Source: an uncultured Gammaproteobacteria bacterium
Lineage (GTDB): Bacteria; Pseudomonadota; Gammaproteobacteria; GCA-002705445; GCA-002716945
Assembly: GCA_902605525.1 (NCBI GenBank)
Contig: CACLCV010000008.1
Span: 1 to 38,357, forward strand
Direction of reading: 5' to 3'
Length of the DNA stretch: 38,357 nucleotides
The number at the start of each line of letters is the position of its first letter. Position 1 is the first letter of the stretch. Below are positions 29,811 through 29,832 of the stretch, one piece after another. Position numbers and translations under genes: made by a program. Below the pieces are notes generated by a model, which did no database searches, was not told the origin of the DNA, and was given only the letters and a program-made list of their open reading frames with translations.

Positions 29811-29832
29811 ATGAGAACTTAATGAGAACTTA
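29811..29832. promoter_or_regulatory. candidate LexA operator: perfect tandem 11-bp repeat ATGAGAACTTA x2 (GAAC-N7-GAAC)
   Basis: 29811-29821 and 29822-29832 are identical; immediately downstream of the putative -10 and ending at the lexA start codon. Confidence 0.6.

Follow-up and report, generated by a model that had tools for sequence, protein, structure and literature searches.

A direct-repeat element at the lexA gene of an uncultured gammaproteobacterium and its predicted role as the operator of a divergent LexA

The LexA box of the Alphaproteobacteria, described for Caulobacter and its relatives, is the direct repeat GTTC-N7-GTTC (PMC3323433, PMC9578287, PMC12700426), whereas CTGT-N8-ACAG serves most beta- and gammaproteobacteria as SOS box, and the literature that describes this second box assigns the direct repeat to the Alphaproteobacteria (PMC3323433, PMC9578287, PMC8565304). 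Lateral acquisition of an alphaproteobacterial lexA by Acidobacterium capsulatum is on record through the title of a study cited in open papers, and Pseudomonas putida and Xanthomonas possess second LexA proteins, with two regulons that have different boxes (PMC9578287). For a direct-repeat LexA box in the Gammaproteobacteria we found no description in the open literature, and work behind subscription may hold one. We describe here a direct repeat at the lexA gene of an uncultured gammaproteobacterium, its conservation among relatives and the type of LexA protein with which it is associated.

The repeat at lexA and its conservation in the family

In the window, by which we mean the whole 38,357-base stretch of DNA that was analysed, ATGAGAACTTA is found twice head to tail at positions 29811–29821 and 29822–29832, the second copy ending on the A of the lexA ATG, and this pair is the sole case of exact head-to-tail 11-mers in the window. 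The first-pass annotation, made from the letters of the window, was therefore right about a perfect tandem repeat that touches the start codon and about the position of the TATCAT hexamer in front of it (Table 1). The pattern of the alphaproteobacterial-type box, GAAC-N7-GAAC, is present upstream of lexA at 29815–29829, which is its only match in the window; as shuffled windows contained at least one match in 33 of 100 cases, a lone match is unremarkable and the window site by itself proves nothing, so that the proof has to be supplied by conservation. When up to one mismatch was allowed, CTGT-N8-ACAG matched the whole window 9 times against 9.4 expected, with no match near lexA, just as had been noted earlier, and a canonical gammaproteobacterial SOS box at this gene was rejected because the matches are at chance level. 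A TATAAT-like sequence abuts the operator in other genera of the window's family (nine-member alignment); a consensus promoter scan at lexA returned no plus-strand promoter above threshold.

Table 1. Features of the lexA region, in window coordinates
Feature	Start	End	Strand	Basis
Candidate −35 element TTGTAC (weak; 3/6 consensus bases), separated from the −10 by 17 bp	29782	29787	+	Sequence inspection
Candidate −10 element TATCAT	29805	29810	+	Sequence inspection
Predicted LexA operator GAGAAC-N5-GAGAAC, direct repeat of 11-bp period (GTTCTC-N5-GTTCTC on the other strand)	29813	29829	+	Family and class conservation
Operator half-site 1, GAGAAC	29813	29818	+	Invariant columns, nine-member family alignment
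Operator half-site 2, GAGAAC	29824	29829	+	Invariant columns, nine-member family alignment
lexA (200 aa); no other full-length LexA was found in genomes of the family	29832	30434	+	Pfam LexA_DNA_bind and Peptidase_S24 above cut-offs
Recognition-helix codons, residues 42–50 (SKGVAHRYV)	29955	29981	+	LexA alignment (alpha, gamma, E. coli)
Autocleavage site Ala87-Gly88	30090	30095	+	Invariant in alignment of 15 sequences
Catalytic Ser120 codon	30189	30191	+	Invariant in alignment of 15 sequences
Catalytic Lys158 codon	30303	30305	+	Invariant in alignment of 15 sequences
Gene of a 405-aa Y-family translesion polymerase, second in the operon; its start overlaps the lexA stop (TAATG)	30434	31651	+	Pfam IMS domains; adjoins lexA in the family

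LexA homologues were retrieved from relatives, among which the window's family has 17 complete lexA loci. All 17 carry an exact GAGAAC-N5-GAGAAC, placed 19 or 20 nt in front of lexA's first codon, a motif whose per-position chance, calculated from base composition, is about 3e-8; the alignment of upstream regions that had been suggested as a check thus found the repeat in relatives. Among nine aligned family members the two GAGAAC units and the ATG are invariant while the flanks drift and the five spacer bases vary, the spacers seen in the family being TTAAT, TTTAT, TTATT, CTTAT, TTTAC and TTTAA. Because the spacer varies, the perfect identity of the two 11-mers is incidental: judged by this alignment, the element kept by evolution is GAGAAC-N5-GAGAAC, and the 11-bp identity carries no meaning of its own. 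What the first-pass annotation had proposed, a direct-repeat operator read by a divergent LexA in a gammaproteobacterium, is supported by comparative genomics, but in a stricter form than its GAAC-N7-GAAC.

The exact motif was present in 18 of 25 family genomes, with one copy in each, 17 of these copies being at lexA and the remaining one falling within coding sequence, in a genome where lexA was not detected. Two genomes (G010 and G011; loci L294 and L295) have kept the lexA-linked polymerase and lack lexA, and there the direct repeat before the polymerase is absent as well, which fits a site that belongs to LexA. Neither lexA nor the lexA-linked polymerase is present in genomes G009, G022 and G024. 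One-mismatch sites across the window's genus all lie within coding sequence and were for that reason rejected as LexA targets; the loose pattern GAAC-N7-GAAC was rejected as a means of defining the regulon of the window's own genome, since the reversed control gave 24 matches and the pattern itself 7. The upstream regions of recA in the window's family contain no GAGAAC-N5-GAGAAC site. Indeed, operators at recA and other repair genes, such as a multi-gene SOS regulon would have, were seen in some other gammaproteobacterial families, whereas in the window's own genus and family the operator was found only at lexA. The first-pass expectation of further sites near recA or uvrA failed in part for this family, directly at recA and, as to uvrA, in so far as a genome-wide search saw no site besides that at lexA; it held for recA in some of the other families. 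Taking exact sites and, within the genus, one-mismatch sites, the family's regulon seems to consist of one operon of lexA and a translesion polymerase gene, to which weaker targets may be added.

Since the polymerase start lies inside the lexA stop, the two genes probably form one translationally coupled operon. The genome, which is small and 73 % complete, encodes two Y-family polymerases, the 405-aa lexA-linked protein, which falls short of the NCBI DNA polymerase IV cut-offs, and a 361-aa DinB-like protein (G000:C2:37333-38280) whose gene has no operator. In a genome of the same genus a umuC-like gene lies beside an S24 (UmuD-like) gene, with the upstream region off the contig (G007:C40, L059). 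The metagenome origin of a same-genus relative suggests that the window organism is marine.

The LexA protein and its phylogenetic position

The product of lexA has the domains of a LexA protein, an N-terminal LexA DNA-binding domain (PF01726, 24.2 bits, cut-off 23.7) followed by an S24 peptidase domain (PF00717, 80.6 bits), and it retains both the Ala-Gly cleavage site and the Ser/Lys dyad (A87-G88, S120 and K158). Its score of 107.8 bits against TIGR00498 is 3 bits short of the NCBIfam equivalog cut-off of 110.95, which is a score limit for naming and not a structural feature, and such a shortfall is to be expected of a divergent LexA. E. coli LexA provides its best matches among solved structures, and alignment to that sequence agrees with the earlier remark that the recognition region is unlike that of E. 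coli: the helix residues Asn, Glu and Glu, which in E. coli LexA contact DNA, are replaced by Gly, His and Arg. More generally, the type of recognition helix tracks the type of operator across groups, the two gammaproteobacterial direct-repeat clades having SKGVAHRYV and SRGSLHKHI, the alphaproteobacterial proteins SKSGIHRLI and the canonical gammaproteobacterial proteins SPNAAEDHL, so that the window helix SKGVAHRYV has Ser-Lys and His-Arg in common with the alphaproteobacterial helix and is unlike the canonical one.

As some lexA loci had been retrieved by motif, a fair count of operators takes only those retrieved by protein. Counted in this way, GAAC-N7-GAAC (on either strand) lies upstream of lexA at 22/28 and 12/14 loci of the two gammaproteobacterial direct-repeat clades and at 30/32 alphaproteobacterial loci, and at 0/7 canonical gammaproteobacterial loci and 0/17 loci from other phyla; in six of the 28 members of the first clade the region before lexA is without an exact direct repeat. 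In the full lexA set, control patterns of equal composition were found 0–3 times per group. The GAGAAC form is present at none of the 32 alphaproteobacterial lexA genes; the window site, for its part, does not match the extended alphaproteobacterial consensus, which is without that form, while the window and gammaproteobacterial sites consist of GAGAAC twice. Such a comparison suggests that the window operator works like the alphaproteobacterial box but is a variant of it.

In a tree of 75 LexA sequences, the window LexA was placed in a gammaproteobacterial clade (gammaDR1; 100/99) together with LexA proteins of a methanotroph, Thiodiazotropha and many unnamed families, and not inside the alphaproteobacterial clade. 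A second gammaproteobacterial direct-repeat clade (100/100) contains Sedimenticola, Methylobacter and Thiogranum, while the alphaproteobacterial LexA proteins form one branch (100/99) and the canonical gammaproteobacterial proteins another (100/100), both apart from the direct-repeat clades of the Gammaproteobacteria. The half-site core, the spacing and the similar recognition helices might be taken as signs of a recent acquisition of both LexA and its box from an alphaproteobacterial donor, as has been published for A. capsulatum; however, long branches separate the alphaproteobacterial LexA from the clade of the window's family, and the alphaproteobacterial operators lack the GAGAAC form. 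A recent transfer was rejected, as it found no support in the tree, and we consider it very unlikely. By its position in the tree, the window LexA is a distinct gammaproteobacterial lineage within a large clade of that class rather than a recent import, so the first-pass annotation correctly recognized a gammaproteobacterial genome with a divergent LexA but not that the system extends far beyond one odd genome.

Of 36 genomes with a direct-repeat LexA that were checked, 7 also hold a canonical LexA and 29 do not, and the canonical protein is lacking in all six members of the window's family among those checked. Elsewhere in the clade, one genome (G053:C42; L026, L237) has two LexA genes of this clade separated by about 3 kb, and the exact operator is present at just one of the two. 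The alpha- and gammaproteobacterial direct-repeat LexA proteins lie on the same side of a branch with values of 91/88, which would allow a single origin, and a tree that forces the gammaproteobacterial direct-repeat proteins together with canonical gammaproteobacterial LexA was not rejected (p-AU 0.42). It is conceivable, though in our estimation rather doubtful, that all direct-repeat LexA proteins of the two classes descend from one ancestor that already read a direct repeat, that the CTGT-N8-ACAG system of E. coli was a later replacement and that the window's family retains the old type shrunk to a single lexA–polymerase operon.

Distribution of the motif in the Gammaproteobacteria

Among the matches listed for 274 gammaproteobacterial genomes, GAGAAC-N5-GAGAAC occurred 133 times and its reversed control 39 times. 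In 43 genomes from at least 33 gammaproteobacterial families the motif lies upstream of a LexA homologue at a distance of no more than 200 bp; it also lies upstream of recA in three genomes, and before umuD-like genes and Y-family polymerase genes in some. A class-wide motif list covers 74 genomes, 40 of which contain matches with no link to lexA, recA or a Y-family polymerase gene; some of these are at umuD or helicase genes and many are probably due to chance. Three genomes have the operator before a DEAD/DEAH helicase gene whose product matches TIGR03817 (L212:1-1194, L264:1-1245 and L276:1253-2446), and this helicase is possibly a further SOS gene of the gammaproteobacterial direct-repeat clade. 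In about 13 other gammaproteobacterial genomes two facing operators, approximately 6–18 bp apart, precede lexA, a polymerase gene or a helicase gene (L028, L079, L109, L230, L268, L271 and L276, among others).

This distribution bears on two further explanations of the repeat. In the window's family the element touches the start codon, from which its spacing is fixed, and each copy holds an ATG, all of which might be expected of a translation-start feature in which a small tandem duplication copied the start codon with its context (ATGAGAACTTA ATGAGAACTTATG) and no repressor is involved. However, families elsewhere in this LexA clade have the motif 30–90 bp upstream, on either strand and often as two copies facing each other, it is also found upstream of recA or polymerase genes in relatives, and it is GAGAAC that stays constant while the spacer and the ATG-like bases vary, so that we give this explanation very little credence. 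Equally remote is an operator of another regulator that sits at lexA by chance: LexA is a predicted binder of the site and the motif occurs once per genome in the family, but the motif and this type of LexA go together across 33 families, the motif is present at other SOS genes and lacking at canonical lexA genes, and the genomes that keep the polymerase gene without lexA do not have it.

The proposed switch and its relation to known systems

Our reading is that GAGAAC-N5-GAGAAC acts as the autoregulatory LexA operator of the lexA–polymerase operon, forming a single-operon switch with recA outside it; we put the probability of this at about 0.9. It is based on the computed conservation of the site, its association with the LexA clade and, in relatives, with SOS genes, and the cleavage and helix residues, which together support the view that a gammaproteobacterium has a direct-repeat LexA operator and a LexA of non-E. 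coli type. From these we infer binding, dimer geometry, promoter position and RecA-triggered induction as follows. The half-sites, in the same orientation and 11 bp (about one helical turn) apart, would present themselves on the same face of the helix and, starting 3 bp past the −10-like element, would cover the expected transcription start. A LexA dimer could then place its two DNA-binding domains side by side and head to tail on the half-sites and so block the promoter, head-to-tail docking being the simplest reading by analogy with the alphaproteobacterial system. Upon DNA damage, RecA filaments would induce the Ser120/Lys158 dyad to cut LexA at Ala87-Gly88, as the conserved residues lead us to expect, and LexA and the translesion polymerase would be produced. 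Most genomes of the family have a recA gene and, recA there being without an operator, RecA synthesis would not depend on LexA; LexA and the lexA-linked polymerase would be the only products to increase in the response, and its inducibility would rest on RecA protein already present.

If the gammaproteobacterial LexA group, represented in at least 33 families, does read a direct repeat, the SOS regulons of many uncultured marine, methanotrophic and sulfur-oxidising lineages would have been sought by an unsuitable motif. The matched changes in box and helix would provide a natural series in which to study the recognition of a direct repeat by a repressor of two-fold symmetry, and a one-operon regulon in a marine genome of about 1 Mb would be a minimal SOS response of LexA and a translesion polymerase only.

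Among known systems, the Bacillus or Gram-positive box, GAAC-N4-GTTC, has the same GAAC half-site core but is inverted, in contrast to the direct repeat described here, and it was found at none of the gammaproteobacterial direct-repeat lexA genes. The second LexA proteins of P. putida and Xanthomonas resemble the present case in that a non-canonical LexA exists beside or instead of the usual one, as in the seven genomes that hold both types; their boxes are reported to have other, palindrome-like sequences. With canonical E. coli LexA the window protein shares the domain order, the cleavage site and the catalytic dyad, but it differs in the three substituted helix residues, and its gene is without CTGT-N8-ACAG. 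In operator and helix the likeness is to the alphaproteobacterial system, in which successive GAAC cores upstream of lexA itself likewise share one orientation and an 11-bp period and the recognition helix likewise has Ser-Lys-(Ser/Gly) and His-Arg. The alphaproteobacterial box is, however, approximately GAAC-N5-TAGAAC, whereas the gammaproteobacterial form has G-A before both cores, and the two kinds of protein occupy separate, well-supported branches.
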